This document shows positions 8,499 to 29,035 of a stretch of DNA of 64,000 nucleotides, one piece after another. The DNA comes from Gammaproteobacteria bacterium. GTDB taxonomy: Bacteria; Pseudomonadota; Gammaproteobacteria; Xanthomonadales; SZUA-36. Below the pieces are notes generated by a model, which had not been told where the DNA came from, ran no database searches, and saw only the letters and a list, made by a program, of their open reading frames with translations. Where the stretch lies: positions 1 to 64,000 of the forward strand of contig JAJFLB010000033.1 in assembly GCA_021772915.1 (NCBI GenBank), in the 5' to 3' direction. The stretch's first letter is position 1; each line of letters begins with the position of its first letter. The position numbers and the translations under genes were made by a program.

Positions 8499-9776
8499 AT
8501 GATCCAGCCGCAGCAACACACCGGCTCATATTACGCAGCCTCAGTTAACGAGGTCACTGATTTCGCACCTTTGCGTGGCGCACAAAGGGCTGATGTCTGC
8601 GTCATCGGGGCAGGATTCACCGGCATCTCGACCGCACTGCACCTTGCCGAACGTGGCTATGTGGTGCATGTGGTCGAGGCCAATCGGGTTGGCTGGGGTG
8701 CGACCGGACGCAACGGGGGCCAGATCATCGGTGGTATTTCCGGCGAGGAGAGAATTGCCCGACACCTGGGTCGCGACGGCGAGCAGATTGCGTGGCAGTT
8801 GGCTTGGGCGGGAAATGACATTATTCGTGAGCGGGTGCAGACTTACGCTATTGATTGTGATCTCAAGTGGGGGTACCTCGACGTTGCGATCAAGCAGCGT
8901 CATCTGCGCGATCTGCATGGGCAGGTAGAAGCGCTGGAGAAGCACGGCTCTAAACATGAATACAGATTGTTATCCCGGGAAGAGACGGCATCCACAATCG
9001 GCACCGAAGTTTATACCGGCGCCCTGATGAACATGGGCAACGGCCACCTGCATGTTCTGAACCTGTGCATCGGTGAAGCGCGGGCAGCCGTATCCCTGGG
9101 GGCAAAGATTTTTGAGCAGTCTCCGGTGTTGCGTATCGAACATGGGGACAAGCCACGTGTTGTTACCGAGCAGGGATCGGTCACAGCCGATTTTGTCGTG
9201 ATCGCCGGCAATGCCTATCACTACATTGAGCCAAAGCTGCGGGGCTATATGTTCCCTGTGAATAGCTTCATCATCGCAACAGAGCCGCTTTCTGCAGAGC
9301 ACGTGTCAGCCATCAACCCACAGGACCTCGCCGTATGCGATCCAAATTTCGTGCTGGAGTACTTTCGTCTTTCCGCGGACAAGCGATTGCTGTTCGGTGG
9401 GCGGTGTAATTACAGTGGTGACGACCCTGAAGTCATCAGGGAAATGATGATTCCGAAAATGCACAGAGTCTATCCCCGTCTGGCCGATACGAGGATCGAC
9501 TATGCCTGGGGCGGCAGGGTCGGCATAACGCTCAACCGGGTACCCCAGCTGGGAAGAATCTCATCCAATGTTTTTTACTCACAGGGCTACTCCGGGCATG
9601 GCGTCAACGTGACCCATCTCGCCGGACAGATCATGGCCGACACCGTGGCTGGAACTCTTGAGCGTTTCGACATTTTTGCCAGCATCAAGCCGTTGGTTAT
9701 TCCCGGGGCCCACACTTTCCGCAGACAAATGACCACGCTTGGCGTGCTTTATTACAAAATTAAAGACCGCTTGTAG
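8499..9776 (+). CDS. FAD-dependent amine oxidoreductase, PuuB-like
   Basis: This 425-residue DAO-family flavoprotein resembles E. coli gamma-glutamylputrescine oxidase PuuB over its whole length: HTGSYYAASVN at the start, the dinucleotide motif VIGAGFTGISTALHL, the GATGRNGGQIIGG flavin loop, VIAGNAYHY, and QGYSGHGVNVTHLAG near the end. PuuB oxidises the free amine of gamma-glutamylputrescine to an aldehyde with release of H2O2. No PuuA-type glutamine-synthetase-like ligase is present in the window, so the substrate may be another primary or secondary amine. The gene is divergent from the DMGDH-like gene (264 bases between starts) and convergent with the MetE-like gene (7 bases between ends). 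Confidence 0.88.
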   Translation: MIQPQQHTGSYYAASVNEVTDFAPLRGAQRADVCVIGAGFTGISTALHLAERGYVVHVVEANRVGWGATGRNGGQIIGGISGEERIARHLGRDGEQIAWQLAWAGNDIIRERVQTYAIDCDLKWGYLDVAIKQRHLRDLHGQVEALEKHGSKHEYRLLSREETASTIGTEVYTGALMNMGNGHLHVLNLCIGEARAAVSLGAKIFEQSPVLRIEHGDKPRVVTEQGSVTADFVVIAGNAYHYIEPKLRGYMFPVNSFIIATEPLSAEHVSAINPQDLAVCDPNFVLEYFRLSADKRLLFGGRCNYSGDDPEVIREMMIPKMHRVYPRLADTRIDYAWGGRVGITLNRVPQLGRISSNVFYSQGYSGHGVNVTHLAGQIMADTVAGTLERFDIFASIKPLVIPGAHTFRRQMTTLGVLYYKIKDRL

Positions 9777-14503: not shown

Positions 14504-15880
14504 TTATCTTTTAACAATCAGACCACCCTTGACCACAACTTCTACATTTTCCAGCAACGTAATGTCTTCAAGCGGGTTGCCCTTTACCGCCACAAGATCA
14601 GCCAGCATACCGACTTCTACTGCACCGACCCGGTTTTCCCAACCCATATACAGGGCGGCCCTGGATGTCGCAGCCTGAATGGCTTCCATCGGCGTCATCC
14701 CCCACTCCACCATATAGGCAAACTGAATACCGTTCATTCCGTGTGGATAAATGGCGGCATCGGTTCCAAACACGATGGGTGCACCCGCATCATGTGCCCG
14801 TTTGAAGCTCTCCCGCTGTACTTGTGTGGTCTCAATGGTCTTACGCAGAAACTCCTCGACCCACCCCTGTTTGCGCCCGTTCTCGATCATCCAGTCACCG
14901 GCACCGATATCCATAACCAGGGCAACGTCATGCTGGATAGCCAGCCTGATACCCTCATCATCAATATAGGTAGCGTGTTCTATGGTATCGGCCCCGGCCA
15001 GGATCGAGTCCTTGATGGACTGAGCACCGTGGGCATGGGCGGCCACCTTCAGACCGGCGTCATGAGCGACTTGCGCAACTGACTGTATCTCCTCGCGACT
15101 CATTTCCGGTTCACCCGGAACACCGCCATACGCCAGCACTGCACCGGAAGCGATTAGTTTCAGTACATCTGCACCCCCTTCAACAGCCTTTAGTGCGTTT
15201 GCACGAAACTCTTCCGTGGACCTGGAGACACCTGCTCTGAGATGCCCCGGAATCGACTCCTCTGGGATACCGGGTGCCAATAAATCTCCGCCACCACCGG
15301 GGATGGTCAGGTAAAACCCTGACACCTGCAAACGCGGTCCTGCAAGCTCGCCGCGATCAATTTTATCGCGTAGCTGACGATCGACAAACGCATAGTAATT
15401 GCCAAGATTACGTGCAGAAGTAAATCCGGCCTCCAGGGATCTGTGGGCGTACTTCCGGCCTGCCGCCATGTAGTCATCCACGCTGTAATCAAAATACATC
15501 GTCAGGTCCACCAACTCTTCAAAGCTTTCCAGGATGTGGGTGTGCATTTCAATCAGACCGGGCAGACAGGTGTAGTCGGAAAGATCAAGAACCGGGACGG
15601 TGGCAGCGATGTCTTTCGCGGCTGTAATTTTTGAGAAATGCCCGTCGACAATGAGTACAGACACCTTGCTTTTTGGTGTGTCTGAGCGACCGTCAATAAG
15701 CGCACCGCAATGCACCAGCAGGTTGCCGGAGTCCGGTTGATACGGAATACTGGCCGGTTGTGCTGACTTTGACAGCGCTACCTGAGTCTGCCCTGGGGCT
15801 TGTGCAGGCCCACAGGCGGTGAGTGAAATGACCAGCAGCCCCACCAGCAGGTTACCCAGGATAAGATGACTGCCGCGCAT
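14504..15880 (-). CDS. Amidohydrolase lipoprotein (imidazolonepropionase/prolidase-like)
   Basis: The mature start is placed at the ATG at 15880, which gives 458 residues and a clean lipoprotein signal ending in the lipobox LTAC. A longer start at 15949 overlaps the kamA stop (TAATG) but would add 23 residues before the signal. The TIM-barrel amidohydrolase carries the metal HxH pair in EMHTHI, a VAAHAHG strand and the terminal metal Asp in VFGTDAAIYPHG. Relatives hydrolyse dipeptides, cyclic amides or imidazolonepropionate. The lipobox puts it at the membrane facing the periplasm, so it may release an amino acid for the cytoplasmic KamA-like enzyme encoded just upstream (inference). Confidence 0.85.
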   Translation of the reverse strand: MRGSHLILGNLLVGLLVISLTACGPAQAPGQTQVALSKSAQPASIPYQPDSGNLLVHCGALIDGRSDTPKSKVSVLIVDGHFSKITAAKDIAATVPVLDLSDYTCLPGLIEMHTHILESFEELVDLTMYFDYSVDDYMAAGRKYAHRSLEAGFTSARNLGNYYAFVDRQLRDKIDRGELAGPRLQVSGFYLTIPGGGGDLLAPGIPEESIPGHLRAGVSRSTEEFRANALKAVEGGADVLKLIASGAVLAYGGVPGEPEMSREEIQSVAQVAHDAGLKVAAHAHGAQSIKDSILAGADTIEHATYIDDEGIRLAIQHDVALVMDIGAGDWMIENGRKQGWVEEFLRKTIETTQVQRESFKRAHDAGAPIVFGTDAAIYPHGMNGIQFAYMVEWGMTPMEAIQAATSRAALYMGWENRVGAVEVGMLADLVAVKGNPLEDITLLENVEVVVKGGLIVKR

Positions 15881-15948
15881 GCTGTTCGAACTCCGGATTT
15901 CTTGCCCAAAAGGGATAAGCAGAGTAGCAAGTCCGTAGGGGTTGGGCA

Positions 15949-17367
15949 TTAGTCTCTGTTTTTCTCAACTCGCGTGTAGTCGTACAAACCGGCCTCGTCG
16001 AAGATAACGCGATCCTCGTAGTCGTCGAACCAGGTTGCGTCCGGGTTACGTCCAACGATACAGACCTTGCCGCGGTCCGGGGCGTTCAGTGCGTTACGGA
16101 GTATCTTAAAGACCAGCACACCGTTCTCAGTTCCGGGAACACCGGGGATTGGCTCGCTGGTGACGGCCGAAACCTCGGTCTTACCTTTGTAGTGAGTGAT
16201 GGACAAACGGGCGTGCGTCTCCACACCGGACAGACCTTTCTGGGATTCGTTCAGGATCTTCCATGCCGTTTCGATTGGGACGTTGAAGGCTCTGTAGGCA
16301 ACGATGTCCCTGCCACAGAAGAAATAGTGGTTGCCGACACCAACCCGGTAAAGGGCACGTTGCATCACCCTGAGTGCATCTGGGTCGTCATTGATGCCTT
16401 TAATAATCGGTGCCTGGTTTTCGACATTGATCCAACCCCGGGACGTTACTGCTTCCATTGCCTGTCGGGTGTCTTCGTGCCACTTTAGCGAACCGTTCGC
16501 GTTCGTGAGATATGCACCGTCGGGCCCCTTGAGGAGAAATTCATCGGGATGGTTAAAGTGGATCATCAGCCTGAAGCCGACCAGGGGATAGGTGTCGTGA
16601 AAGTTATCCAGCATTGACAAAAAAGCGTCATCAAAACGTTTTGGGTGAAACGAGATTTCTTTGGTGCCGAGCCGGATTGATTCCACACCCGCTTCTGCGA
16701 GCGCGGCCATCCACGCGCCAATCTTTCTGTTTGGCAATACCATGGGGTCGCCACCGGAAAGCAGGACCTCGCGGAGCTTCTCACGGCCTGATTCAGGGTG
16801 CAGACCCCCGTTTGCGGTAACGGTTTCATTGTGTGCACGTACGTAATCGGTGACCTCTTTGATCTTTGCCAGTCCTTTTTTGGCGACGGTGCCGTCCTGG
16901 CGTTCTATGTCCTTCTGGCTGATCAATTCTTCGCGGTAGCAGAAACGACAATGCGCCGAGCAGGTGGAGACGGCATACAAAAGACCCATTTCATACTTGT
17001 GTAGAAGACCTTCGACCGGGGCGAAGTCCATCTGGTGTCCGGGGTCTTCTGAACCCGCCAGGTTGAGTGTTTCGTTCGGATTGGCCTTGACGATCCTTTT
17101 CAGTGGCCGGCTGTTGCGGGCCATTTCGAAGAAGTGCCGGGTCATTTTTACCGGCATGCGATTTTCCACATCACGCTCTGTGCCTTTCACGCTCGACAGC
17201 GCCGCGAGTTCATCGGGGGAATAGAACCCTTTGATGTCCTCCGGTGCCTTGTCTTCAAAGAAGGGTTTCAGACCATTGATGATCTGGCGGTCGTATTTGG
17301 GGTTGTCGATCGTGTCCAGAAACGCCTGTTCCCTTGCTGCGGGGACGTATTTACCTGCGTTTGTCAC
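15949..17367 (-). CDS. KamA-family radical SAM amino acid 2,3-aminomutase
   Basis: This 472-residue protein has the radical SAM cluster C136-x3-C140-x2-C143 (STCSAHCRFCYREE), then LLSGGDPMVLPN and VENQAPIIKGIND, as in lysine 2,3-aminomutase. The family moves the alpha-amino group to the beta carbon using SAM, a 4Fe-4S cluster and PLP. The usual PLP-lysine motif PGGGGK is not seen in the C-terminal part; the best candidate lysines are in THYKGKTE near residue 400. The lysine-binding Asp that precedes that motif in clostridial KamA is also not evident, so the substrate may not be lysine. It is longer than the EF-P-modifying EpmB (about 340) and lies beside catabolic genes, divergent from an RpiR regulator. 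Confidence 0.88.
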   Translation of the reverse strand: MTNAGKYVPAAREQAFLDTIDNPKYDRQIINGLKPFFEDKAPEDIKGFYSPDELAALSSVKGTERDVENRMPVKMTRHFFEMARNSRPLKRIVKANPNETLNLAGSEDPGHQMDFAPVEGLLHKYEMGLLYAVSTCSAHCRFCYREELISQKDIERQDGTVAKKGLAKIKEVTDYVRAHNETVTANGGLHPESGREKLREVLLSGGDPMVLPNRKIGAWMAALAEAGVESIRLGTKEISFHPKRFDDAFLSMLDNFHDTYPLVGFRLMIHFNHPDEFLLKGPDGAYLTNANGSLKWHEDTRQAMEAVTSRGWINVENQAPIIKGINDDPDALRVMQRALYRVGVGNHYFFCGRDIVAYRAFNVPIETAWKILNESQKGLSGVETHARLSITHYKGKTEVSAVTSEPIPGVPGTENGVLVFKILRNALNAPDRGKVCIVGRNPDATWFDDYEDRVIFDEAGLYDYTRVEKNRD

Positions 17368-17402
17368 TTAACACCTCATGCTTTCGTGCTTTAGTCTGGT
17401 GC

Positions 17403-17442
17403 TAATGTAACACATTGAACCCTTGAATTGTGTTAATGTAAC
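17403..17442. promoter_or_regulatory. Candidate RpiR operator between kamA and rpiR
   Basis: The 78-bp divergent gap holds an inverted repeat TAACACA (17408-17414) and TGTGTTA (17429-17435), embedded in a direct repeat TAATGTAAC at 17403-17411 and 17434-17442, 31 bases apart (three helical turns). This arrangement suits a dimeric regulator of the RpiR type controlling both directions. Confidence 0.6.
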
Positions 17443-17445
17443 GTG

Positions 17446-18288
17446 ATGAACATAATGGAGTCAGCGACCTCAACGCCGGACCTCGTTGCCGCGGTCAGCG
17501 GTGAGCTGACACCCACAGAACGGCGCATCGCCAGGGAGGTGCTTGCCGAGCCAACGCTGCTGGCATTCGGTACGGTATCGGACCTGGCCTGCCGTGTGGG
17601 TACCAGCCGACCTTCTATCGTGCGCTTTGCCAACAAGCTTGGCTTTGATGGCTACACCCAGTTGCAACGACATGTTCGCAGCGATTTATCCCATCGTCTC
17701 ACACGTCCAAGCGAGCGAATCAGGCATGATGATGAGACGGTTCCAGGCGCAAGATCGGCAATGGACAGCGCGATTGCATCCGTTTTTGAAGCGGTTGAAG
17801 GTGGTCGCCTGACGGAACTCGCCGGGGCCATCGTCCGGGCTGAAAATGTCTGGATTCTCTCCGGGGAGACTTCGCGTGCAGGTGCCCATGCATTTTACAG
17901 TGGTCTGTCCATGGTCCGGCCGGGTGTGCGTATACTTGAGACCCACTCGATGAGCACCGACCTGAGTGGTGCAGGATCAGGGGACGCTGCCGTGGTGTTC
18001 GACTTTTCCCGATACCGGCGGCAGGTGATTACTGCGACCCGTGTTCTCGCGAACGCCGGTGCTGCAGTTGTAGCGATTACCGACAGCCCATTATCTCCAC
18101 TGGTCGAGCTGGCCGACACCTGGTGTGAAATCGAGGTGCCGGCAATTGGCCCGTTTGACAGTTCTGCACCCGTCGTGGCGATTGCCGAGTTGCTCGTGTC
18201 CCAGGTTGCCAAGGACCTGCACAACGAGGCGACGGTTCGTATCGACCGCATTGAGGCCCTTTGGGAAAAAACAGAGGTGTTCTTGTAG
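17446..18288 (+). CDS. RpiR/MurR-family transcriptional regulator
   Basis: This protein of about 280 residues has an N-terminal HTH_6 domain (LTPTERRIAREVL, then SDLACRVGTSRPSIVRFANK as the helix-turn-helix) and a C-terminal SIS domain (about 120-260), with the typical AENVWILSGETSRAGAHAF and VVFDFSRYRRQ strands. The frame can start at a GTG at 17443; the ATG directly after it is used here. SIS domains usually bind sugar phosphates, but several RpiR members control amino acid catabolism. The gene is first in a row with two CoA-transferase subunits and an aminotransferase and is divergent from kamA, so it probably controls both transcripts through the repeats at 17403-17442. Confidence 0.9.
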   Translation: MNIMESATSTPDLVAAVSGELTPTERRIAREVLAEPTLLAFGTVSDLACRVGTSRPSIVRFANKLGFDGYTQLQRHVRSDLSHRLTRPSERIRHDDETVPGARSAMDSAIASVFEAVEGGRLTELAGAIVRAENVWILSGETSRAGAHAFYSGLSMVRPGVRILETHSMSTDLSGAGSGDAAVVFDFSRYRRQVITATRVLANAGAAVVAITDSPLSPLVELADTWCEIEVPAIGPFDSSAPVVAIAELLVSQVAKDLHNEATVRIDRIEALWEKTEVFL

Positions 18289-18318
18289 TGAGTGTAGTGT
18301 ATCGAAGAGGAGTACCAG

Positions 18319-19029
18319 GTGATTGACAAGCAGGTTTTATCGGTCTCGGAAGCAGTAGCTGATATTCCCGAGGGGGCTACGGTTATGGTGGGGGGGTTTG
18401 GCGCATCAGGTAGCCCGATCGAGCTGCTCCATGCATTGATTGACCAAGGTGTAAAAAACCTGACCGTGATCAATAACAACACCGGTAACGGTGAGGTGGG
18501 CCTGGCCGCCCTGATTGGCAACGGGCAGGTGCGTAAGATGATCTGTTCATTCCCCAGGTCCAGTCAGTCCAAGGTGTTCCCTCAGTTGTACAAGGAAGGC
18601 AAAATCGAGCTTGAACTTGTCCCGCAGGGCACCCTTGCCGAGCGAATTCGAGCGGCGGGTGCCGGAATACCGGCATTTTACACACCCACGACAGTAGGCA
18701 CGGTCCTGGCTGAGGGTAAAGAGGTGCGGGAGTTTGATGGGCGCGACCACGTGATGGAGCCCTGGCTCAAGGCTGATTATGCACTGATCAAGTGTGAGGT
18801 GGCCGACCCCCTTGGCAACCTGACCTATAACAAGACCGCCCGCAATTTTGGCCCCATCATGTGCATGGCGGCCACCACCACCATCGTGCAGACGAAGAAA
18901 CTGGTGGCCAGGGGTGAAATTGACCCGGAGCACGTCATCACCCCCGGCATTTTTGTAAACCGCATTGTCGAGGTTCCTGACCCGGTTCACGAGGACACGC
19001 TGATTGCCGCAGGCAGGAGGTTCCCATGA
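18319..19029 (+). CDS. 3-oxoacid CoA-transferase, subunit A
   Basis: This 236-residue protein is the alpha subunit of a family I CoA-transferase (ScoA/PcaI/AtoD type). The CoA-binding glycine-rich stretch GGFGASGSP is at about residues 26-34, followed by LTVINNNTGNGEVG and a conserved KTARNFGPIMC strand. It starts with GTG; a GAAGAGGAG Shine-Dalgarno about 7 bases upstream supports this start. With subunit B it transfers CoA, usually from succinyl-CoA, to a 3-oxo acid. The genes overlap by four bases, as expected for subunits made in equal amounts. The close PcaI-like match favours a 3-oxo acid substrate over a simple short-chain acid. Confidence 0.92.
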   Translation: MIDKQVLSVSEAVADIPEGATVMVGGFGASGSPIELLHALIDQGVKNLTVINNNTGNGEVGLAALIGNGQVRKMICSFPRSSQSKVFPQLYKEGKIELELVPQGTLAERIRAAGAGIPAFYTPTTVGTVLAEGKEVREFDGRDHVMEPWLKADYALIKCEVADPLGNLTYNKTARNFGPIMCMAATTTIVQTKKLVARGEIDPEHVITPGIFVNRIVEVPDPVHEDTLIAAGRRFP

Positions 19030-19670
19030 GTGCCGGTTGGACAAGAGAGCAGATGGCAGCGAGAGCCGCCCAGGACATCCCCGATGGTGCCTGTGTCAAT
19101 CTGGGTATTGGCATCCCGGAGCTGGTCGCAGGGTTTGTGCCCGAAGGCCGTGAATTTATTTACCACACTGAAAACGGGCTGCTTGGAATGGGACCGCCAC
19201 CGGCTGAAAATGAACGCGATCTGGACTTGATGAACGCCGGCAAGAAGTATGTCACGGCAGTTCCCGGCGCGGCCTATTTTCACCACGCCGACAGCTTCAG
19301 CATGATACGTGGTGGGCATATCGATGTTTGTGTTCTCGGCACCATGCAGGTGGCCGCAAACGGAGATATTGCCAACTGGTCCACGGGAGCACCCGGTGCC
19401 ATTCCCGCGGTAGGTGGTGCCATGGATCTGGTGCAAGGTGTTAAGCGCATCTACGTGATAACCCAGCACACCACAAGGAATGGCGATCCAAAGCTGGTTG
19501 AAAGGTGCAGCTATCCCCTGACGGGTCCTGGTGTCGTGTCACGCATTTACACCGACCTGGCCGTGGTTGATGTCACTGACGACGGGTTCCGGGTGGTTGA
19601 ACTGGCGCCCGGTGTTGATTTTGAAGAGGTGAAAAACAAGACTGGCGCGTCCATTCTGCCGTCGGACTAA
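19026..19670 (+). CDS. 3-oxoacid CoA-transferase, subunit B
   Basis: This 214-residue beta subunit has the catalytic glutamate in the conserved FIYHTENGLLGMG motif (about residues 40-52), where the acyl-glutamyl-CoA intermediate forms. GIGIPELV near the N-terminus and VTDDGFRVVELAPG near the end are also family features. Its ATG overlaps the subunit A stop by four bases. In this operon its most logical substrate is the 3-oxo acid made by the aminotransferase encoded 43 bases downstream from the KamA product (inference). The thiolase needed for the next step is not in the window. Confidence 0.92.
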   Translation: MSAGWTREQMAARAAQDIPDGACVNLGIGIPELVAGFVPEGREFIYHTENGLLGMGPPPAENERDLDLMNAGKKYVTAVPGAAYFHHADSFSMIRGGHIDVCVLGTMQVAANGDIANWSTGAPGAIPAVGGAMDLVQGVKRIYVITQHTTRNGDPKLVERCSYPLTGPGVVSRIYTDLAVVDVTDDGFRVVELAPGVDFEEVKNKTGASILPSD

Positions 19671-19713
19671 TTGTTATGCACTCCGTAATTGATCAAGGGA
19701 CTGGATAGACAAA

Positions 19714-21024
19714 ATGGAAACGCTGAAGCAAGCAACTGAATCTGCCCGTGACCGGTACGTGGCAGCTAACCCTCTGAGTCAGGCCGCAGATCGCCATGCT
19801 GAACAGTTCTTGCCCGGGGGTAACACACGTTCAGTTTTGCATTATGAACCGTTCCCTCTGACCATGGTTGCGGGGGAAGGCGCCGAGCTTGTTGACCTGG
19901 ATGGCCACCGATACGTTGATTTCGTTGGTGAATATTCGGCAGGGCTGTTCGGGCATTCAGACGAAACCATCAAGTCGGCGGTGACAGCGGCCCTGGATAA
20001 AGGGATTGTCATGGGTGCGCCTACCTCGTATGAAAGAGAACTTGCAGGTTTGTTGTGCAATCGGTTTCCTTCAATTGAGCAGATCAGATTCTGTAATTCA
20101 GGGACCGAGGCCAATCTCATGGCATTGACCACCGCAAGAGTGGTAACGGGTCGCGAAAAGATACTCGTCTTCAACGGCGCCTATCACGGGGGTGTGATCA
20201 AGTTTCCAAACGGGGACTCGGTACACAATGTCCCTTATGATTTCTTGTTTGCGGAATTTAACGACACTGAAGGTACTGCTGACCTGATCCGCCGGACGGG
20301 TGATGAACTTGCTGCGGTCATTGTCGAGCCCATCCTGGGTGCCGGTGGAAACATCCCGGGCAGTCGGGAGTTTATGGGAATGCTCCGACTGGTGACGAGG
20401 GAAATTGGGGCCCTGCTGATTTTTGATGAAGTCAAAACGGCCCGTCTTGGCCCGTCAGGTGTACAGGGTATGCTGGGCATCACTCCCGATCTGACCACGC
20501 TGGGGAAATTCATAGGCGGTGGTTTGCCGACCGGTGCATTTGGGGGCAAGGCCGAGTTCATGGCCCACTACAATCCTAAACTGGCGGGCAACTGGAATCA
20601 CGCCGGCACCTTCAACAACAATGCCTGTTCAATGGCCGCCGGCAGTGCCGCCATGAGTAATATCTATACACAGGAACGTGCCCGGGAATTTTTTGACTGG
20701 TCTGAGAATTTTCGCATCTCGCTTAATGACATGTTCGCGACGCGGTCGGTACCGATGTATTGCAATGGCATGGGCTCAATTTTTGCGATTCACTTTTCGA
20801 GCAAGCCGACCCGAAGAACGTCTGACATAAGTACCGGATGCCAGTCACTACGTCCACTACTACACATGGAGCTACTGCTGGAAGGTGTGCTGGTATGCAG
20901 CCGTGGTGACCTTTTCATGTCGCTACCCATGACCGAGGCACATCTTTCCACGGCACGCACCGCGCTGGAGAAATTTATCGATCGCTACAGACCTCTTATC
21001 AGCATGGTACTGGAGGTAGCCTAA
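19714..21024 (+). CDS. Class III aminotransferase, glutamate-1-semialdehyde aminomutase-like
   Basis: This 436-residue PLP enzyme has the class III hallmarks: NSGTEANLMAL for cofactor phosphate binding (about 128-138), GAYHGG, the Asp pair FDEVKTARLG (about 237-246) and the Schiff-base Lys265 in TTLGKFIGGGLP. It resembles glutamate-1-semialdehyde 2,1-aminomutase, but its place after a CoA-transferase and opposite kamA argues for a catabolic role, most likely transamination of a beta-amino acid to a 3-oxo acid (inference). The C-terminal part is complete for the fold. It is the last gene of the rpiR operon. Confidence 0.88.
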   Translation: METLKQATESARDRYVAANPLSQAADRHAEQFLPGGNTRSVLHYEPFPLTMVAGEGAELVDLDGHRYVDFVGEYSAGLFGHSDETIKSAVTAALDKGIVMGAPTSYERELAGLLCNRFPSIEQIRFCNSGTEANLMALTTARVVTGREKILVFNGAYHGGVIKFPNGDSVHNVPYDFLFAEFNDTEGTADLIRRTGDELAAVIVEPILGAGGNIPGSREFMGMLRLVTREIGALLIFDEVKTARLGPSGVQGMLGITPDLTTLGKFIGGGLPTGAFGGKAEFMAHYNPKLAGNWNHAGTFNNNACSMAAGSAAMSNIYTQERAREFFDWSENFRISLNDMFATRSVPMYCNGMGSIFAIHFSSKPTRRTSDISTGCQSLRPLLHMELLLEGVLVCSRGDLFMSLPMTEAHLSTARTALEKFIDRYRPLISMVLEVA

Positions 21025-21526: not shown

Positions 21527-22732
21527 TCAGAAATCAGCCGGTGGTGTTTGGCGTCTGCGTGGCGGATTCCAGAAAACGTCCCTGACCACTCGACAGGGCT
21601 CCATCACACGGCTCCATCTCAATTCCCGCTGGTAGTAGATCTCAACTTCGAGTTCCTCACCCGGCTCACCGTGCGGTGCTTCCAGTGAAGCCAACGCAAT
21701 GCTGGCCTTGGCCGAGGGTGACCACATGGCGGAGGTGACCGTGCCCGCATACTTCCCGTTCCTGGTGAAAACGAAGGCGTCTTTTGCCGGCTTGTTGCCG
21801 TCGATATCGAGTTTCACCAGGTGGTAACGTGAGCCATTTTTCTTCTCTTCCAGCAGAGCCTTGCGGCCGTTAAAAACACCCTTGTCGAAAGACACCAGCC
21901 AGCCCAGACCCAATTCAAAGGGTGAGCGTGTGTGGGTAGGCCGCACGGCCTCCATGGCGGGGAGAAATTCAACGCCTGCCAGGATAAATCCGGCCTCAAT
22001 GCGCAGCATTTCAAGCGCATCGCTTCCCATGGCCCGGATGCCACGGGTGCTGCCGGCCTCGAATAAACGGTCCCAAAGCAGTTCGGCATGATCAGGATCG
22101 ATCCATAGCTCGTAGCCTAGGTCGCCGGTAAACCCGGTGCGTGACACCATCAGTTCAACGCCCTCGAAATCGAAGTAGTCCAGACCGAATGGCGTGAGGC
22201 TTTCAACGTCAGCCAAACCCATTTCCCTCAATACCGCGCAACTGGTCGGTCCTTGCAGGGCCAGGCCGGCCACATCATGGGTGTCCTCTACGATATTGAC
22301 ATCGAAGCCCGTGGCACTGGTCAGGAACCAGTCAATCTGGTGTTCCTGGGAGCAGACACGGTAGATACCCTCACGCAGGTGAAAAATCGTACCATCATCA
22401 ATCACCTGGCCGTTATCATTGCACCAGACACTGTAACCGACGCGGCCAGGTTTGAGCTTGCTCACATCCCGGGTCATCAGCCGGTTGAGGTACGGTAGCG
22501 CATCTGGGCCGGTGACAAGGTGCTTGACCATCGGTGTGATATCGAACACGCCACAGGTGTTGCGACCGGAAAAGTACTCCAGTGATTCACACCAGTAAGC
22601 CGGTACTGAAAGATAATCACTCCAACGGCTCCACTCCTTGAGCTGGTTGTGTTGCTCCTGCCGTGAATGAAACGGGCTGGGGTATACGGCTGTCTTGTGG
22701 TGATCCGCGTTTGTAATATTTACAGTTCTCAT
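21527..22732 (-). CDS. GcvT-like aminomethyltransferase-family protein, stand-alone
   Basis: This 401-residue protein corresponds to the folate-binding T-protein fold: YFSGRNTCGVFDITPM at about 55-70, the GQVIDDGTIF segment whose Asp matches the catalytic region of GcvT (IDDLIV), SRTGFTGDLGYELW, and LRIEAGFILAG. It is not linked to gcvH or gcvP, so it is not a housekeeping glycine-cleavage gene. It is the last gene of a four-gene run after an aminotransferase and two phytoene-desaturase-like flavoproteins and probably takes a methylene or methyl group released by one of them onto tetrahydrofolate (inference). The C-terminus ends in a short basic, Pro-rich tail. Confidence 0.87.
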   Translation of the reverse strand: MRTVNITNADHHKTAVYPSPFHSRQEQHNQLKEWSRWSDYLSVPAYWCESLEYFSGRNTCGVFDITPMVKHLVTGPDALPYLNRLMTRDVSKLKPGRVGYSVWCNDNGQVIDDGTIFHLREGIYRVCSQEHQIDWFLTSATGFDVNIVEDTHDVAGLALQGPTSCAVLREMGLADVESLTPFGLDYFDFEGVELMVSRTGFTGDLGYELWIDPDHAELLWDRLFEAGSTRGIRAMGSDALEMLRIEAGFILAGVEFLPAMEAVRPTHTRSPFELGLGWLVSFDKGVFNGRKALLEEKKNGSRYHLVKLDIDGNKPAKDAFVFTRNGKYAGTVTSAMWSPSAKASIALASLEAPHGEPGEELEVEIYYQRELRWSRVMEPCRVVRDVFWNPPRRRQTPPADF

Positions 22733-22751
22733 CGTCGTTTCCGGCTCCTTG

Positions 22752-24302
22752 CTACTGTGCCAACACGACAGTAGCCGCGTTCCTGCCAGCGCTGCCCATC
22801 ACACCACCACCGGGGTGGCAACCGGCGCCGCAGAGGTAAAGCCCTTCCACAGGTGTTTCGTATTGTGCCGATCCGGGCACCGGGCGCAACATCAGGAATT
22901 GGTCCAGTGACAACTCGCCGTGGTGCCAGTGACCGCCTGCCATGCGGAACTCATTCTCAATATCCTCGGGTGTGAGCAACTCAGTGGCGATAACGTTTTC
23001 ACGGATACCGGGGGCGTATGCAGAAAGTGTTTCCAGTACTGCGTCGGTGAATGCTGCCTTTCCTTCACTCCAGCCCGTACCGAGATTCCGTGGGGCGTAC
23101 TGAACGATGGCGGAAAGCACGTGTTTTCCGTCCGGTGCCAGAGTTTCGTCGTGGATACTCGGTATGGTTATTTCCGCCACGGGATGGGTTGAGAACTCAC
23201 CATACTTGGAATGATTAAACGCCCGTTCCACGTACTCCATGTCAGACGCGATCACCAGACGATGACCCAGCTGCGTCGGACTGACACCTTTGAAATCGGG
23301 CAGCTTGTCCAGTGCCAGGTGCAGCTTGGCCGCGTTGCCGCTAGCCCGAATGTTGTGGAATTTTCGCGCGACCCCTGCTTCGAGATGTTGTGCGCCCAGC
23401 AGGTTCATCATGGTGGTTTTCGGGTCGGCGTTGGAGATTACCACCGATGCTGCAATTTGCTCACCACCTGACAGTTGCACACCCCTTATGGTGTCACCGT
23501 CCATCAAAATTTTGTCAACCGGACTGCCAGTGTGAGTTTCAGCGCCATATTCACGTGCTGCGGCCGCCATGGCTTGTGTCACGGCACCCACTCCGCCATT
23601 GGGTAGTGACAGCTGACCGGCAGCACCACGGGTATTGCCGCTTGTACGGTGAAGGGCTGTGAATACGCTATTGTTTGATCTTGGTCCGGAATTTGTGCCC
23701 AGCACGGCATCCAGACTCAGCGCCCCCTTGAGCAGTGGATTATCAAAGTTTTCCTGCAGGACATCATAAATGTTGATGGCGCCGATACGCAGCAGCTCAC
23801 GCATGTCATTACGGCCCAGCATACGCACCTTCAGGGCCATTTTGCCGAGGGCGATCATGTCGCTGCGCTCACTGGTGATACGTGGTGGGATCTTGTTATG
23901 AAGACCGCTGATTACGCCCGCAAATTTTCTCATGAAACGGCGGTATTCCCGGTACGCTGCCTTGTCTTCAGTTGACAGGTTCGCACCGCTCAAGCGACGG
24001 GTACTGATGGTAATGTGATCGCCGCTTTCTGCCAGGGCAATTGTCTTGAGACCGGATTTGGCCATCTTCAGCCCGTGAGAGTCCAGCGCAAGATCCTTGC
24101 TGATGTCCTTGTCCAGCAGGTAAAGGAGGTGCGCTACTGAAGCCCGGAAACCGGGTGCGAATTCACGCGTTGCAGCAGCACCACCAACCTGGTCCGCGGC
24201 TTCGAGTACCGTGACGTTTCTCCCCGCCTTTGCCAGGTAGGCTGCGCATACGAGGCCATTGTGGCCGCCACCGATAATGACGATTTTGTCAGAATTAATC
24301 AT
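22752..24302 (-). CDS. Phytoene desaturase/PYROXD2-like FAD oxidoreductase (copy B)
   Basis: This 516-residue flavoprotein has the N-terminal Rossmann motif IVIIGGGHNGLVCAAYLAKA with a GxGxxG variant and the second FAD contact near the C-terminus (GLYLCGAGCHPGGGVMGSAG). That ending is typical of PYROXD2-like proteins rather than true carotenoid desaturases, and no carotenoid genes are nearby. Its start overlaps the end of the paralog at 24295-25914 by 8 bases. The two copies share the whole fold but have diverged, which suggests a heterodimer or two successive oxidations of the same substrate (inference). Confidence 0.87.
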   Translation of the reverse strand: MINSDKIVIIGGGHNGLVCAAYLAKAGRNVTVLEAADQVGGAAATREFAPGFRASVAHLLYLLDKDISKDLALDSHGLKMAKSGLKTIALAESGDHITISTRRLSGANLSTEDKAAYREYRRFMRKFAGVISGLHNKIPPRITSERSDMIALGKMALKVRMLGRNDMRELLRIGAINIYDVLQENFDNPLLKGALSLDAVLGTNSGPRSNNSVFTALHRTSGNTRGAAGQLSLPNGGVGAVTQAMAAAAREYGAETHTGSPVDKILMDGDTIRGVQLSGGEQIAASVVISNADPKTTMMNLLGAQHLEAGVARKFHNIRASGNAAKLHLALDKLPDFKGVSPTQLGHRLVIASDMEYVERAFNHSKYGEFSTHPVAEITIPSIHDETLAPDGKHVLSAIVQYAPRNLGTGWSEGKAAFTDAVLETLSAYAPGIRENVIATELLTPEDIENEFRMAGGHWHHGELSLDQFLMLRPVPGSAQYETPVEGLYLCGAGCHPGGGVMGSAGRNAATVVLAQ

Positions 24303-25914
24303 CGAGCCAGCCCTCCGGAACCGTGTTGGGTTTACGCAGATCCCTGAGGATTTCGCGTGCAGCGTTGGCCCCCGGCGCTGCCATCACACCACCACCGGGT
24401 GGGTTGGAGGAACCACACATGTAGAGTCCTTTTACCGGTCCGCGGTACTGGGCGTAACCGGGGATAGGCCGGTTGAACGCCAGCTGGTCGAGGGTCAGCT
24501 CACCGTGGAAAATATTGCCCTCGGTCAGACCGATGTCGTTGTCAAGTTCACGCGGCGTACGCACTTCCATATGCAAAATCAAATCCTTGAAACCGGGTGC
24601 GTATTTTTCGATCTGGTCAATCACGGTCTGGCCAAATTGAGTCACCTGCTCATCGGTCCAGTCCTTGCCACGGATTTTTGGTGGCACATACTGTACGAAC
24701 ACCGACATAAAATGCTTGCCCGGCGGTGCCATGGTTGGATCGGTCAATGAGGGAATCAGCATGTCGATGTAGGGGTCCTGCGACCAGGTTCCGTTCTTCC
24801 AGTCATCGTAGGCGCGCTCCAGGCGTGCTATGGAGTCGATCAGGTGCATGTCGCCATAAATCATTTGCTCGTTGCCACGTAGTGCAACAAAGTCCGGGAG
24901 ACCGTCGAGGGCAATATTCACCTTTCCTGAGGAGCCACGGATTTTGAAATTTCTTACCTTCTTGAGAAACCCGGGCTTGAGATCCCCGGCGTCCATACAT
25001 TCGAGAAAGGTGCGTGGGAAGGTCATGTTGGAAACCACGACATCAGAGTAATACTCACTGCCGTCTTTCATGGCCACACCGCTGATTTTGCCTTTTTTGA
25101 CGATGATCTGCGCGACCCCCTCGCCGGTTATGGTCGTGCCGCCATGGTCTGTGAAGCAGTCGTTCATGGCCCGCGCCACGGCACCCATGCCACCGCGTGC
25201 AAATCCCCAGGCACCCATGCTGCCGTCCACGTCGCCCATGGCGTGGTGGAGCAGGATGTAAGCTGTACCGGGTGACATGACGCCAAGTGCCGAGCCGATG
25301 ATGCCACTACCGGCATAAGATCCCTTGAGTAAGGGGCTTTCGAAATACTCATCCAGGAAATCGGAGATGCTCATGGTGTAAAAACGCAAGGTGTCGTAAA
25401 TCACATCTTCACCCAGATCCATCAACTCCTTACCCATATACAGCAGTTCAGACAGATCGCGGGGTTTGAAAGAGGTTGGGTCCGGTGGTGTACGCAGTAG
25501 CAGCTTACGGATAAGACGGCATTGCCGCATGATGTCGCGGTCAAAGCGGACACTCGCATCCGCGTCCCGATGACTGTGTCGCGCTATTTCCCTGCGGGTA
25601 ACATCCGGGTCGACGTAATTGCCGATATAGTCGCCATTCTCGGCCAGCGTGACGCTGCCGCCGTAGGGTACGACCTGCAGCCCGTACTTGGCCAGGTCCA
25701 GGCTGCGGTAAACCTCGGGGCGCAACAGGCTGCAAACATAGGAGCAGTTGGAGTAGGTCCAGTCCTTGTACATATCCAGGCTCACCGAGGCACCGCCAAT
25801 GTAGTCGTTTTGCTCCAACATCAGGACATTCAGCCCGGCCTTGGCGAGGTAGGCGCCATTGGTCAGGCCGTTGTGACCTGCGCCGATAACGATCGCATCA
25901 TACTTTGTTCTCAA
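24295..25914 (-). CDS. Phytoene desaturase/PYROXD2-like FAD oxidoreductase (copy A)
   Basis: This 539-residue paralog of the downstream gene has AIVIGAGHNGLTNGAYLAKA at about residues 8-27, the segment VLMLEQNDYIGGAS, and the closing flavin loop GLYMCGSSNPPGGGVMAAPG. The frame begins with TTG at 25914. A GGAG Shine-Dalgarno about 9 bases upstream, and the fact that the FAD motif begins only 8 residues in, make this start convincing. It lies 44 bases after the aminotransferase gene and overlaps the next gene, so the four genes from 27305 down to 21527 form one operon. The substrate is unknown. Confidence 0.87.
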   Translation of the reverse strand: MRTKYDAIVIGAGHNGLTNGAYLAKAGLNVLMLEQNDYIGGASVSLDMYKDWTYSNCSYVCSLLRPEVYRSLDLAKYGLQVVPYGGSVTLAENGDYIGNYVDPDVTRREIARHSHRDADASVRFDRDIMRQCRLIRKLLLRTPPDPTSFKPRDLSELLYMGKELMDLGEDVIYDTLRFYTMSISDFLDEYFESPLLKGSYAGSGIIGSALGVMSPGTAYILLHHAMGDVDGSMGAWGFARGGMGAVARAMNDCFTDHGGTTITGEGVAQIIVKKGKISGVAMKDGSEYYSDVVVSNMTFPRTFLECMDAGDLKPGFLKKVRNFKIRGSSGKVNIALDGLPDFVALRGNEQMIYGDMHLIDSIARLERAYDDWKNGTWSQDPYIDMLIPSLTDPTMAPPGKHFMSVFVQYVPPKIRGKDWTDEQVTQFGQTVIDQIEKYAPGFKDLILHMEVRTPRELDNDIGLTEGNIFHGELTLDQLAFNRPIPGYAQYRGPVKGLYMCGSSNPPGGGVMAAPGANAAREILRDLRKPNTVPEGWLDD

Positions 25915-25958
25915 GGTGCTTAACTCCGCATTGTTGCCCTGTTGTGTTGCTTGTCCGG

Positions 25959-27305
25959 TTACGCGGACTTGCGCGTCTTCGCTTTGGATTTGGCGGCCCG
26001 TTTTTCCAGGGTTACATCGACCGACTGCTCAAATGCCCTGAGGGTGTGCGCGAGACTGTTGTCTTTTGCATGGGCCTCGCTAATGAATAAGGGCTCACGT
26101 GAGTCCGGTTCGCAAAGAACACCCCGGTCGTGTAGTTCGGGGGCCATCTTGTCGTAAAAACTGTAGTCTGAACTGGACCAGGCCCGGTAATTGTCGGGTG
26201 GCGGATCATCGAATATCAAACCGCCCATTGAAGGGTGACCAACAAAGGAATGCGGGATGCCCCTTGCGGCCAGGATTTCGTGTATACCCGCCTGTAGAGC
26301 GGACCCGTAGTCGGCAATGGTTTCCAGGGCGTCGGTTTCGTCCAGAATTTCCAGGGTTTTTGCGGCCGCCGCCAGGGTAACGGAGTGGCAGGTGTAAGTT
26401 CCACCGTGCATCACGCCATCGCCGATCTGACGCATGATGTCCTCGCGTCCGGCCACGGCTGAGATGGGGTACCCGTTGCCAAGTGCCTTGGCAAAGGTAC
26501 ACAGGTCGGCCTTGAAACCCATGAGTTCCTGCACACCGCCTCTTGCGACCCGAAAGCCGGTCTTCACTTCGTCAACAATCATGACGACGTTGTATTTGTC
26601 GCACAGTTCCCGGGCAGCGTGCACGTATTCCGGGTTAGCCGTGATTGAGCAGCTGTTACCCATAATGGGTTCGATCAGAAAAGCACCTATATCCTGGTGA
26701 TGACGTTTCAACAGGTCTTCAAGGTAATTGGAGTCATTAAGCGGCGTGAAGTGGGTCAGCTTTTTAATCAGACTGGGTATGCCTTCACCTTCTGCCTCAA
26801 TGGGTGGATCATCCATACCCGGTTCCCACTCATCGATATCGGCGTACCACAAAACAGAATCGAACATGCCGTGGTAGCCGCCTTCTACAATGATGTGAGA
26901 GTCCTTACCGGTATGGGCCCGCGCCAGGCGTAAGGCCGCCATAACCGCCTCCGTACCGGAGTTTGAAAACCGCACCAGCTCGGCCGCGGGTACCATATTT
27001 GAAATTCGTTCCGCCACGTCAAATTCAAGTTTGGTGGACAGGGCGAATACGCCGCCCACTTCCATACCCTTGCGGGCTGCCTCATCCACCCTGGGGTCAG
27101 CATAGCCCAGGATTCCCGGACCGTAGCCCAGGCGGTAATCGACGTACTCGTTGCCATCAATATCCCACAAGCGACTCCCTCTGGCATGGTCAACGTAAAT
27201 GGTTTTGTTTTCACCCCAATAGCGAAAATTTGAGGACACACCGAGCGGTAGTTTGCCCAGGGCCTTTTGGTGGTGAAGGTTCGATTGTTGCAATGAACGA
27301 GGCAT
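25959..27305 (-). CDS. Class III aminotransferase, GSA-aminomutase-like
   Basis: This 448-residue PLP enzyme has FSNSGTEAVMAALRLARA (about 113-130), GGYHGMFDS, MIVDEVKTGFRVARGG and Lys273 in CTFAKALGNGYP. It is only distantly related to the aminotransferase at 19714. It opens the operon with two PYROXD2-like flavoproteins and a GcvT-like protein and is divergent from a BetI-like regulator. A perfect palindrome at 27368-27385 lies 63 bases upstream of its start and probably controls it. Likely role: removing or moving an amino group from an amine or amino acid before or after flavin oxidation (inference). The tail is rich in Lys and Ala. Confidence 0.88.
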   Translation of the reverse strand: MPRSLQQSNLHHQKALGKLPLGVSSNFRYWGENKTIYVDHARGSRLWDIDGNEYVDYRLGYGPGILGYADPRVDEAARKGMEVGGVFALSTKLEFDVAERISNMVPAAELVRFSNSGTEAVMAALRLARAHTGKDSHIIVEGGYHGMFDSVLWYADIDEWEPGMDDPPIEAEGEGIPSLIKKLTHFTPLNDSNYLEDLLKRHHQDIGAFLIEPIMGNSCSITANPEYVHAARELCDKYNVVMIVDEVKTGFRVARGGVQELMGFKADLCTFAKALGNGYPISAVAGREDIMRQIGDGVMHGGTYTCHSVTLAAAAKTLEILDETDALETIADYGSALQAGIHEILAARGIPHSFVGHPSMGGLIFDDPPPDNYRAWSSSDYSFYDKMAPELHDRGVLCEPDSREPLFISEAHAKDNSLAHTLRAFEQSVDVTLEKRAAKSKAKTRKSA

Positions 27306-27367
27306 ACGTCTCCCCAGCTTTTCAAGAACCCTAGAATCTCATATCTCAACCAGTTTTGTCCATACCA

Positions 27368-27385
27368 AATGAATAATTATTCATT
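27368..27385. promoter_or_regulatory. 18-bp perfect palindrome, candidate operator of the BetI-like regulator
   Basis: AATGAATAATTATTCATT is a perfect palindrome lying in the 180-bp gap between the aminotransferase operon and the TetR-family gene. The same half sites with four different spacer bases recur at 32464-32481. TetR-family dimers commonly bind such sites and repress both divergent transcripts. Confidence 0.72.
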
Positions 27386-27485
27386 CATTGCAAAGAAAAA
27401 AAGAAAGGCTTATATTATTTGTCATGAATGAAGAAACCAAGTCTGTGCGGTTAGCAGAAGCTTGCTTTGCCGGCAGGAGAGCTTA

Positions 27486-28133
27486 ATGGGCAAAGCTGTT
27501 GTGAATGGACCGACAAAAAAGAGAACGGCCTCGAAACAGGAGCGACAGTTACAGCTGATCCGCGCTACGGTCCGGTCGGTTGCCAAAAATGGTCTTGCAG
27601 ACACCACCATGTCTACCGTTGCCAGGGAAGCAGGTCTTAGCCAGGGCATTATCAATCTGCATTTCCAGAGCAAGGATCGTCTGCTCGCAGAGACTCTCCG
27701 CTACATCACTGATGAGTATGACGTCAGTTGCAGGAAGGCCCTTAGTGGCGCTGGTCCTTCCCCGGCTGAGCGGCTGGAGGCCCTGGTTGACGTGGATTTC
27801 AAGTTGCCGGTATGTGACCGTAATAAACTGGCTGTCTGGTTTGCTTTCTGGGGAGAAAGCAAGGCTCGTCCAACCTATCGAAAATTATGTGCGTCCAGGG
27901 ATATTCAATACCGCAAAGAGTTGGCTGCCCTGTGTCAGTTACAAATTGAAGAAGGTGGCTACGAAGGACTTGACGCCATGGTACTGGCCACTGGCCTTTC
28001 CGCCATGACGGAGGGTTTGTGGCTGGACTTACTGATCAGCCCGCGTTCAATGACGCGTAAGCAAGCCCGGAATATCTGCGTGGCCTACCTCGCCAGTGCT
28101 TTCCCCCACCATTTTTCAGTCCAGCCCATTTGA
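27486..28133 (+). CDS. TetR-family regulator, BetI-like
   Basis: This 215-residue protein has an N-terminal TetR helix-turn-helix (TMSTVAREAGLSQGIINLHF) and a BetI-type C-terminal domain, with WFAFWGESKARPTYRKL matching the E. coli BetI segment around WLAFWASSMHQP, and a conserved TEGLWLDLLI near the end. The ATG at 27486 is preferred over an upstream start at 27462 because a GGAGAG Shine-Dalgarno lies 6-10 bases before it. BetI represses choline and betaine genes and responds to choline; here the genes next to its operators encode aminotransferase, flavoprotein and aldehyde dehydrogenase functions. The effector may be a related quaternary or aliphatic amine (inference). Confidence 0.87.
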   Translation: MGKAVVNGPTKKRTASKQERQLQLIRATVRSVAKNGLADTTMSTVAREAGLSQGIINLHFQSKDRLLAETLRYITDEYDVSCRKALSGAGPSPAERLEALVDVDFKLPVCDRNKLAVWFAFWGESKARPTYRKLCASRDIQYRKELAALCQLQIEEGGYEGLDAMVLATGLSAMTEGLWLDLLISPRSMTRKQARNICVAYLASAFPHHFSVQPI

Positions 28134-28267
28134 AGTTACACGCTTTGCCAATCGCCGCACAGGAGCGCTGCAAATCAACAATAATGGATGTCAGTTGATT
28201 TGAATCAACCAAACCACGTTCGCCTGGTGTAGGCTTAGGTCTCGACGCCAGACCCACAGGTCCGATT

Positions 28268-29035
28268 GTGTTTAAAGAAGCCGAAACTCGGCAAGACCCG
28301 GAATATACTTTCACGGTTTCCGCCCGGAGCAAGAAACCGGAGGTGCCGATATTCCTGTTTTTGCGGCGTCAATTCGGCCAGCTTCCGCTGGAGCGGATCG
28401 AAAGCATTTTCGGCTTTGTCCAGCAATCCACCCTGTATGGGGGGCGTATATTTCGTCAACGGGAGTTGTCGGACCGCGACGTAGCCCAACTCAACAGTGC
28501 GGGTATTGGTGTCCGGCTGGCAGTATCGAATCACTTTGTGACGCGCGAAGACTATGAGGAAAACCAGGAATTCCTCGCGCGATATCACTACAAGCCCAAC
28601 TCGGTGATAGTCACCAATGATGACCTGGCGCGCTGGATAGCAGAGGACTTTCCGGATTACCGCATTGACGCCAGCGTCATCAAAAACGTCGACACCACAA
28701 AGAAACTGGACAAGGTTTTGGAAACCTACCACGAGGTTGTGTTGCCCATGACAGCCAATGAGGACTTCAAGTTCCTGGAGTCTATTGAGGCCAAAGATCG
28801 GATCACCTTGTTTGCCAACGCTGGATGCGCCTTCACCTGCCCTTCGAAAACCTGTTACGCCTCGGTCTCAAAAATCAATAAGGGTGATGAAGATGCGGCG
28901 TTCCTCTGCTCCAGCTCACTCAAGGAACGTGAGCAACTGGGAATGATCGACTTTGACCTGAAGCCGCTGGTAGACATGGGCTTCAGCAGCTTCAAGTTAC
29001 TCAGGGCAGCGCCTGGGCGGATGACCGGATTCTGA
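28268..29035 (+). CDS. Uncharacterised protein with a C-terminal cysteine cluster
   Basis: This 255-residue protein starts at GTG. I do not recognise a family with certainty. Alternating strands and helices (IFLFLRRQFG, VIVTNDDLARWIAED, DRITLFANAGCAF) suggest an alpha/beta barrel, and the GCAFTCPSKTCYASVSKIN cluster at about 187-205 could bind metal. The layout is somewhat like the U32 peptidase/TIM-barrel group, but the match is weak. There is no signal peptide. Its neighbours are the TetR gene 134 bases upstream and a long inverted repeat downstream. No strong Shine-Dalgarno is visible, so the start may be a few codons off. Confidence 0.6.
   Translation: MFKEAETRQDPEYTFTVSARSKKPEVPIFLFLRRQFGQLPLERIESIFGFVQQSTLYGGRIFRQRELSDRDVAQLNSAGIGVRLAVSNHFVTREDYEENQEFLARYHYKPNSVIVTNDDLARWIAEDFPDYRIDASVIKNVDTTKKLDKVLETYHEVVLPMTANEDFKFLESIEAKDRITLFANAGCAFTCPSKTCYASVSKINKGDEDAAFLCSSSLKEREQLGMIDFDLKPLVDMGFSSFKLLRAAPGRMTGF

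Follow-up and report, generated by a model that had tools for sequence, protein, structure and literature searches.

A KamA-like gene block of a gammaproteobacterium as a candidate aminomutase-led route from 2-aminoadipate to the beta-ketoadipate pathway

Radical S-adenosylmethionine (SAM) aminomutases of the KamA type take part in several described systems. In the kamA-yodPQRST sporulation operon of Bacillus subtilis, a verified lysine enzyme stands with a coenzyme A (CoA)-transferase pair, a class III aminotransferase and, presumably, an acetyltransferase/deacetylase pair. A B. subtilis survey describes the physiological function of KamA as still to be determined and lists the role of YodT as unknown (PMC6522883). 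Lysine fermentation in clostridia and Cloacamonas also starts with a 2,3-aminomutase and may use a HemL-like aminotransferase and a CoA-transferase (PMC3149608). A gene block of similar composition lies at positions 15949-21024 of a 64,000-nucleotide stretch of DNA from a gammaproteobacterium (GCA_021772915.1, contig JAJFLB010000033.1, positions 1 to 64,000; hereafter the window), where a KamA-like gene on the minus strand diverges from plus-strand genes for an RpiR-family regulator, CoA-transferase subunits A and B and a class III aminotransferase. The sequence comparisons described here lead us to favour, by a small measure, the view that this block is a catabolic module for 2-aminoadipate, derived from lysine, which would be degraded via 3-oxoadipate.

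The block shares with the B. subtilis operon a 2,3-aminomutase, a CoA-transferase pair and a class III aminotransferase, but it has no acetylation genes and differs in the family of its aminomutase, its RpiR regulator and its PcaF-type thiolase. The start of lysine fermentation is likewise shared, whereas the 5,6-aminomutase, diaminohexanoate dehydrogenase and cleavage enzyme of that pathway are not among the recurrent neighbours of the block. When compared to clostridial lysine 2,3-aminomutase (LAM; KamA/AblA, structure 2a5h), the window protein is alike in fold, in the CxxxCxxC motif, in the carboxylate arginine and in the lysine that binds pyridoxal phosphate (PLP), but both side-chain aspartates are replaced and the protein has 472 residues rather than 416. 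It resembles glutamate 2,3-aminomutase (TIGR04368) in a probably acidic substrate and in non-aspartate residues at both side-chain positions, which in the glutamate enzyme we take to be Lys and Asn. The CoA-transferase and thiolase families are those of the lower steps of the beta-ketoadipate pathway (PcaIJ and PcaF), the proposed feed being an aminomutase and a transaminase instead of aromatic ring cleavage. The proposed starting pool is shared with the routes leading from 2-aminoadipate through 2-oxoadipate to HglS or to glutaryl-CoA, which deaminate at C2 (PMC7286885, PMC5653290).

The KamA-like family and its recurrent gene block

The KamA-like protein falls below the cut-offs of the curated models to which it is nearest in kind, scoring 93.6 bits against TIGR00238 (KamA family, cut-off 199.2), 72.6 against TIGR03820 (lysine 2,3-aminomutase, 525.4), 81.7 against TIGR04368 (glutamate 2,3-aminomutase, 650), 84 against TIGR03821 (EpmB, 369.3) and 24.5 against Pfam Radical_SAM (29.5). 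Its sole solved relative by sequence is 2a5h (3.5e-14). The same structure headed a Foldseek search with an AlphaFold model based on 37 window and relative sequences (mean predicted local distance difference test score 89.4), at an E-value of 3.6e-20, a template-modelling (TM) score of 0.60/0.68 and a root-mean-square deviation of 7.3, ahead by a wide margin of the runner-up, which belongs to another family (about 1e-5). In a tree of 36 sequences, arbitrarily rooted and with several very long outgroup branches, the window's family forms a clade of 26 members (support 97/97), and four LAM/EpmB-type sequences are set apart from all others (100/99). The cluster motif CxxxCxxC (C136/C140/C143) and Arg145, at what we take to be the place of the carboxylate-binding Arg134 of LAM, occur in 83/83 family sequences, and the PLP lysine (Lys396) in 82/83, the remaining one being gapped there. 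By these comparisons the protein is a distinct new family, with a predicted catalytic core like that of LAM. Loci L042-L048 encode distant KamA-like proteins of several types, whose identity of about 28-42% varies with the alignment (L047 was not aligned) and in a context unlike that of the block; they are apparently further families of non-lysine aminomutase-like proteins.

Relatives of the protein were sought in one genome per species over 84,980 species, which yielded at least 524 confirmed relatives, and the best 80 loci were fetched. The counts over these 80 leave out L129 and the loci bearing G handles, several of whose contigs agree in length and match with loci among L049-L128, and neighbours were counted up to 8 kb from the aminomutase gene. 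Nearly all of the 80 are metagenome-assembled, and the titles of their records assign them to Pseudomonadota, Actinomycetota, Planctomycetota, Gemmatimonadota, Acidobacteriota, Chloroflexota, Verrucomicrobiota and Krumholzibacteriota. Both CoA-transferase subunits are encoded in 72 and a class III aminotransferase in 68, while the full set of KamA-like protein, both subunits and aminotransferase is present in 67 loci from at least eight phyla; RpiR genes occur in 51 and thiolase genes in 31. The gene for CoA-transferase A is on the same strand as the aminomutase gene in 60 loci, on the opposite strand in 14 and absent from 6. In seven of the 13 incomplete loci an operon gene is cut off by the contig end (L054, L057, L106, L107, L110, L118 and L125), and the remaining six are genuine or partial absences (L066, L067, L115, L116, L123, and L083, which has the aminotransferase only). 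Open reading frames (ORFs) from 85 loci were also clustered, and among the 45 largest clusters, which were mapped, all of those found in more than five loci were block genes or antisense frames, with non-block gene families in at most 5/85 loci each. The grouping is far beyond chance, and the gene module and its enzyme series are well supported. The initial annotation of this DNA had looked to the co-occurrence of this KamA subfamily with the CoA-transferase pair and aminotransferase for support, and had placed the enzymes in the order aminomutase, transaminase, CoA-transferase and thiolase; the 67 complete loci, together with thiolase genes adjoining the block in 29/80, support that series. 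Its exclusion of both the clostridial and the acetylated route also holds: neither 5,6-aminomutase nor diaminohexanoate dehydrogenase is a recurrent neighbour, and a beta-lysine acetyltransferase or deacetylase was not found beside the aminomutase, no extra gene family being present in more than 5/85 loci.

The rpiR and aminomutase genes diverge in 51 of the loci, and in 27 of these the sequence TGTAAC occurs twice at a distance of 30 or 31 bp, as against a rate of 0.0002 in mononucleotide shuffles, the 27 being related by descent and not independent events. The shared repeats, as putative operator-like sites, would tie both promoters to one regulator.

Some relatives depart from the common pattern. 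L073 and L080, from planctomycete metagenome-assembled genomes, contain a block of gammaproteobacterial type, with 83% (CoA-transferase A), 85% (CoA-transferase B) and 69-70% (beta-transaminase) identity to the window and a thiolase 77-78% identical to that of L029, while the aminomutase is only 72-73% identical to that of the window; this pattern points to operon transfer or mosaicism. On a plasmid of Mesorhizobium sp. 113-3-3 (L129, 12001-16852), a 63% identical aminomutase, annotated as "hypothetical protein", is followed by genes for a ferredoxin, which could serve as reductant of the radical SAM cluster, for a class III aminotransferase and for a CoA-transferase beta subunit that is of a different type; the annotation shows no alpha-subunit gene. 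L040 (G012, of the same family as the window's genome) has a second version of the module, in which genes for the aminomutase, CoA-transferase A and B and a glutamate-1-semialdehyde (GSA)-aminotransferase-like protein are co-directional, a divergent gene appears LysR-like by eye, and the aminomutase groups with that of Mesorhizobium (98/100). Upstream of the aminomutase in L077, L081 and L084 are frames that resemble, by eye, a branched-chain-type amino acid ATP-binding cassette transporter; they occur in at most 4/85 loci and are a possible substrate uptake system in Acidimicrobiia.

Proposed route and choice of substrate

Each reaction, the reaction order and the substrate are what we infer from sequence. 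In the proposed route, the KamA-like radical SAM/PLP enzyme would shift the amino group of L-2-aminoadipate from C2 to C3 to give 3-aminoadipate, which the beta-transaminase would convert to 3-oxoadipate. A succinyl-CoA-dependent CoA-transferase would then form 3-oxoadipyl-CoA, and a thiolase of the PcaF/PaaJ type would cleave it to succinyl-CoA and acetyl-CoA, with the whole module under one RpiR-type regulator. CoA transfer may precede transamination. The succinyl-CoA spent by the CoA-transferase would be returned by the thiolase, and no ATP would be needed. The choice of 3-oxoadipate as an intermediate follows from a CoA-transferase of the PcaIJ family and a PcaF-like thiolase; from there, the beta-transaminase and 2,3-aminomutase classes lead back to 3-aminoadipate and 2-aminoadipate, which the acidic-pocket signature of the aminomutase would fit. 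How probable each substrate appears depends jointly on the active site and on the type of the thiolase.

Both CoA-transferase subunits exceed the curated cut-offs for 3-oxoacid CoA-transferase (PcaIJ/ScoAB), and subunit B has a TENG motif at what is presumably the place of the catalytic Glu. The initial annotation had assigned the aminotransferase to class III, which stands (family Aminotran_3) and can be refined, its best solved relatives, over the full length, being the beta-transaminases 6iz9 (4e-123), 2yku (8e-123) and 4ao9, a beta-phenylalanine aminotransferase (7e-116), with the next entry at 9e-74. Activity on beta-amino acids is predicted from the class of these relatives. Among the 80 loci, 11 have an aminotransferase of the window's beta-transaminase type and 57 one that is GSA-aminotransferase-like (HemL-like), the two types alternating.

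The thiolase had been expected elsewhere in the genome, which holds for the window's genome but not for 29/80 relatives, in which no more than 250 bases separate a thiolase gene from a block gene, 14 of these thiolase genes being in line with the CoA-transferase genes; two further ones are 1.5 and 4.8 kb away. In gammaproteobacterial loci the thiolase gene sits between those for CoA-transferase B and the aminotransferase, which in the window are separated by 43 bases with no thiolase. Fifteen thiolases were scanned, namely those of L029 and L041 and 13 of the 31 in the 80 loci (14 adjacent or in line, that of L114 1.5 kb off), and a 3-oxoadipyl-CoA thiolase (PcaF) model was the best match of all 15; five (L029, L041, L065, L073 and L074) exceed the TIGR02430 equivalog cut-off of 597. 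The best thiolase of the window's genome is on another contig, in a cluster recognised by eye as phenylacetate-degradation-like, and has 64% identity to that of L029 and 698 bits to TIGR02430. Over 34 genomes, a thiolase above this cut-off is present in 11/14 aminomutase-positive genomes (G023 and G036, with only fragments of the gene, left out) and 5/20 negative ones, which were hand-chosen and non-random (Fisher 0.0045), a difference that partly restates the neighbourhood, since 8 of the 11 owe it to operonic copies.

Lysine 2,3-aminomutase reportedly holds the side-chain ammonium of lysine with two aspartates, which we take to be numbered Asp293 and Asp330, and the sequence of 2a5h confirms the local motifs around both. 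A profile-profile alignment places Arg353 of the window protein at the Asp293 column, ungapped, and Ser389 at the Asp330 column, and a MAFFT alignment pairs the same columns. Arg353 is present in 83/83 and Ser389 in 81/83 family sequences, and Arg387 in 80/83 with Lys in the other three; four aligned LAM/EpmB-type sequences retain Asp at the Asp293 place. This argument on the pocket, which is based on sequence alignment, makes a cationic substrate unlikely and an acidic one attractive.

2-Aminoadipate is a normal intermediate of lysine metabolism, formed by L-piperidine-6-carboxylate dehydrogenase (NF050084). A protein of at least 690 bits to this model is encoded in 33/43 further aminomutase-bearing genomes of other groups, 25 of them over the cut-off of 730; these were hand-chosen among the loci without a gammaproteobacterial title and include L066 and L116, without CoA-transferase and aminotransferase, and L083, without CoA-transferase. 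At the same 690 bits, 20/21 aminomutase-bearing planctomycetes are positive as against 114/294 sampled planctomycetes (Fisher 2e-7, with two aminomutase-bearing genomes removed from the sample), an excess that is confounded by lineage, most carriers being Phycisphaerae or kin, and that possibly draws on an understated background, with at most five candidates scored per genome in the sample and all in the other set. On plasmid pTM2 of Tistrella mobilis, in a single case, relatives of the window's CoA-transferase (A 70% identity; B 68%, the best plasmid match) are encoded a few genes from an L-piperidine-6-carboxylate dehydrogenase (797.8 bits, over the cut-off) and a DUF1338 protein, which belongs to the same family as the 2-oxoadipate-using HglS.

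A number of observations weigh against the 2-aminoadipate route. Arg353 is also present in the distant KamA-like clades of unassigned function (aligned members of L042-L048), and it may thus be structural rather than substrate-binding. The window aminotransferase is closest to beta-phenylalanine-type transaminases, and regulators with an SIS domain classically sense a sugar phosphate. Among the thiolases, 10/15 do not reach the pcaF cut-off (nine score 545-590 bits and that of L084 476), and 15 of the 29 adjoining the block lie on the opposite strand and hence not on the same transcript. No thiolase lies within 8 kb in 37 of the 67 complete loci, many contigs being short. Among positive genomes without an operonic thiolase (G000, the window's own, G006, G012 and G040) the figure of 3/4 does not differ significantly from 5/20 (p 0.09), and in G006 the block is present with no thiolase over the cut-off, the two best scoring 495-507 bits. 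L-piperidine-6-carboxylate dehydrogenase does not discriminate near the window's genome, being found in 13/14 aminomutase-positive gammaproteobacteria and 19/20 negatives; the planctomycete counts at the strict cut-off are only 13/21 and 109/294, and 8/14 aminomutase-bearing Actinomycetota have no match. No lysine-catabolism gene was recurrent beside the block in the 85-locus clustering and locus searches. Inside the block loci, L-piperidine-6-carboxylate dehydrogenase and HglS gave only weak aldehyde-dehydrogenase matches (L077 and L033), and HglS had no match in 14/14 aminomutase-positive genomes and also none in 19/20 negatives, which carries little information.

Other substrates could be fed into the same module. 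L-glutamate would pass through beta-glutamate, 3-oxoglutarate and 3-oxoglutaryl-CoA to malonyl-CoA and acetyl-CoA, or the module would serve to recover the osmolyte beta-glutamate. An arginine at the Asp293 position would suit any acidic side chain, and the known KamA-type enzymes include glutamate 2,3-aminomutase, but the protein scores far below the TIGR04368 cut-off, the neighbouring thiolase is of the 3-oxoadipyl-CoA type and a far simpler catabolism of glutamate exists, beside which this detour makes little sense, and glutamate thus seems unlikely. Use of lysine, ornithine or arginine, all cationic, without acetylation is rather improbable. The case for it draws on LAM being both the sole structure recovered by sequence similarity and the top match by fold, and on the B. 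subtilis operon, in which a true LAM is joined to CoA-transferase and aminotransferase genes; yet all three amino acids are disfavoured because both lysine-binding aspartates are replaced, one of them by arginine, no acetyltransferase is recurrent, and unprotected 6-amino-3-oxohexanoate should by its chemistry cyclise, presumably the reason for acetylation in other organisms. On the loss of both aspartates lysine was rejected as a substrate. The substrates named in the initial annotation (lysine, ornithine, arginine and glutamate) thus include three unlikely cationic ones and omit the best candidate, 2-aminoadipate. Little credence is given to phenylalanine, leucine or another neutral or aromatic substrate, whose degradation would yield acetyl-CoA together with an aryl- or branched acyl-CoA, in spite of the likeness of the window aminotransferase to beta-transaminases, one of them a beta-phenylalanine aminotransferase: the invariant Arg353 would hardly be expected in a hydrophobic pocket, the thiolase type is that for 3-oxoadipyl-CoA, and in most relatives the aminotransferase is of the GSA-aminotransferase-like type.

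Two further explanations concern the order of steps and the role of the KamA-like protein. The CoA-transferase might activate the beta-amino acid before the aminotransferase acts on a 3-aminoacyl-CoA, in the manner of Cloacamonas Kat, an order variant compatible with 2-aminoadipate that has some chance of being correct. The aminotransferase of the window resembles enzymes that we take to act on free beta-amino acids, which argues against this order, while the HemL-like enzyme of most loci resembles the experimentally studied 3-aminobutyryl-CoA aminotransferase Kat (PMC3149608). It is exceedingly improbable that the KamA-like protein is an EpmB-type enzyme of elongation factor P (EF-P) modification, here by chance; it is indeed the sole KamA-family match in the window's genome (G000), in which a TIGR00238 profile search found no EpmB-type protein, but its TIGR03821 score, separate clade and conserved catabolic context led us to reject a role in EF-P modification. 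The initial annotation had regarded an association of KamA with efp as evidence against its proposal; instead what recurs is the block rather than any translation-factor gene, efp not having been searched by name.

Layout of the locus

In an ORF check all five genes of the block are open, intact and full length, and the gene set and divergent layout of the initial annotation are confirmed, with families assigned by profile (Table 1). The coding regions of the two CoA-transferase subunits share four bases.

Table 1. Features of the KamA-like gene block and its divergent promoter in the window.
Feature	Position	Strand	Evidence
KamA-like radical SAM/PLP 2,3-aminomutase, predicted, 472 aa	15949-17367	-	Profile, fold and residue evidence
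Operator-like direct repeat 1, TAATGTAAC, divergent promoter (putative)	17403-17411	+	Repeat search
Operator-like direct repeat 2, TAATGTAAC, 31 bp after repeat 1 (putative)	17434-17442	+	Repeat search
RpiR-family regulator, HTH_6 and SIS	17443-18288	+	Domain profiles
3-Oxoacid CoA-transferase subunit A (PcaI/ScoA family)	18319-19029	+	TIGR02429, 357.9 bits (cut-off 128.5)
3-Oxoacid CoA-transferase subunit B (PcaJ/ScoB family)	19026-19670	+	TIGR02428, 295.2 bits (cut-off 243.55)
Predicted beta-amino acid:2-oxo acid aminotransferase, class III beta-transaminase type	19714-21024	+	Similarity to 6iz9, 2yku and 4ao9

Next to the block, an amidohydrolase gene (14504-15949, minus strand) overlaps the stop codon of the aminomutase gene (TAATG) and may be co-translated with it here. 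Its product has a lipoprotein-like start, and its best NCBIfam model is Xaa-Pro dipeptidase (428 bits against a cut-off of 500). It was rejected as a member of the block, one comparison with the relatives giving no locus match and another L057 alone, at 26%. Elsewhere in the window (5811-9776 and 21527-30776), translations examined by eye include many flavin adenine dinucleotide oxidoreductases (types like dimethylglycine/sarcosine-dehydrogenase, GcvT and phytoene desaturase) and another class III aminotransferase, a content that suggests the use of methylated amines.

Implications for lysine catabolism

The chances appear about even that the KamA-like proteins are an undescribed L-2-aminoadipate 2,3-aminomutase family which opens a route from lysine to beta-ketoadipate in at least eight phyla; four steps would then lead to succinyl-CoA and acetyl-CoA without passing through 2-oxoadipate and glutaryl-CoA. 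An aminomutase route from aminoadipate to ketoadipate was not found in open-access papers, most subscription journals and preprints being outside this coverage. According to one report, enzymes deaminating lysine, beta-lysine or 2-aminoadipate are not known (PMC7241714), and an enzyme acting on C2 and C3 of 2-aminoadipate could be of interest to work on the conversion of lysine to adipate. If the 2-aminoadipate route is true, an aminomutase would give lysine a way into the beta-ketoadipate pathway, the substrates of radical SAM aminomutases would include a new class, and functions could be assigned to gene sets of many planctomycetes, acidimicrobiia and gammaproteobacteria that have not been cultured.

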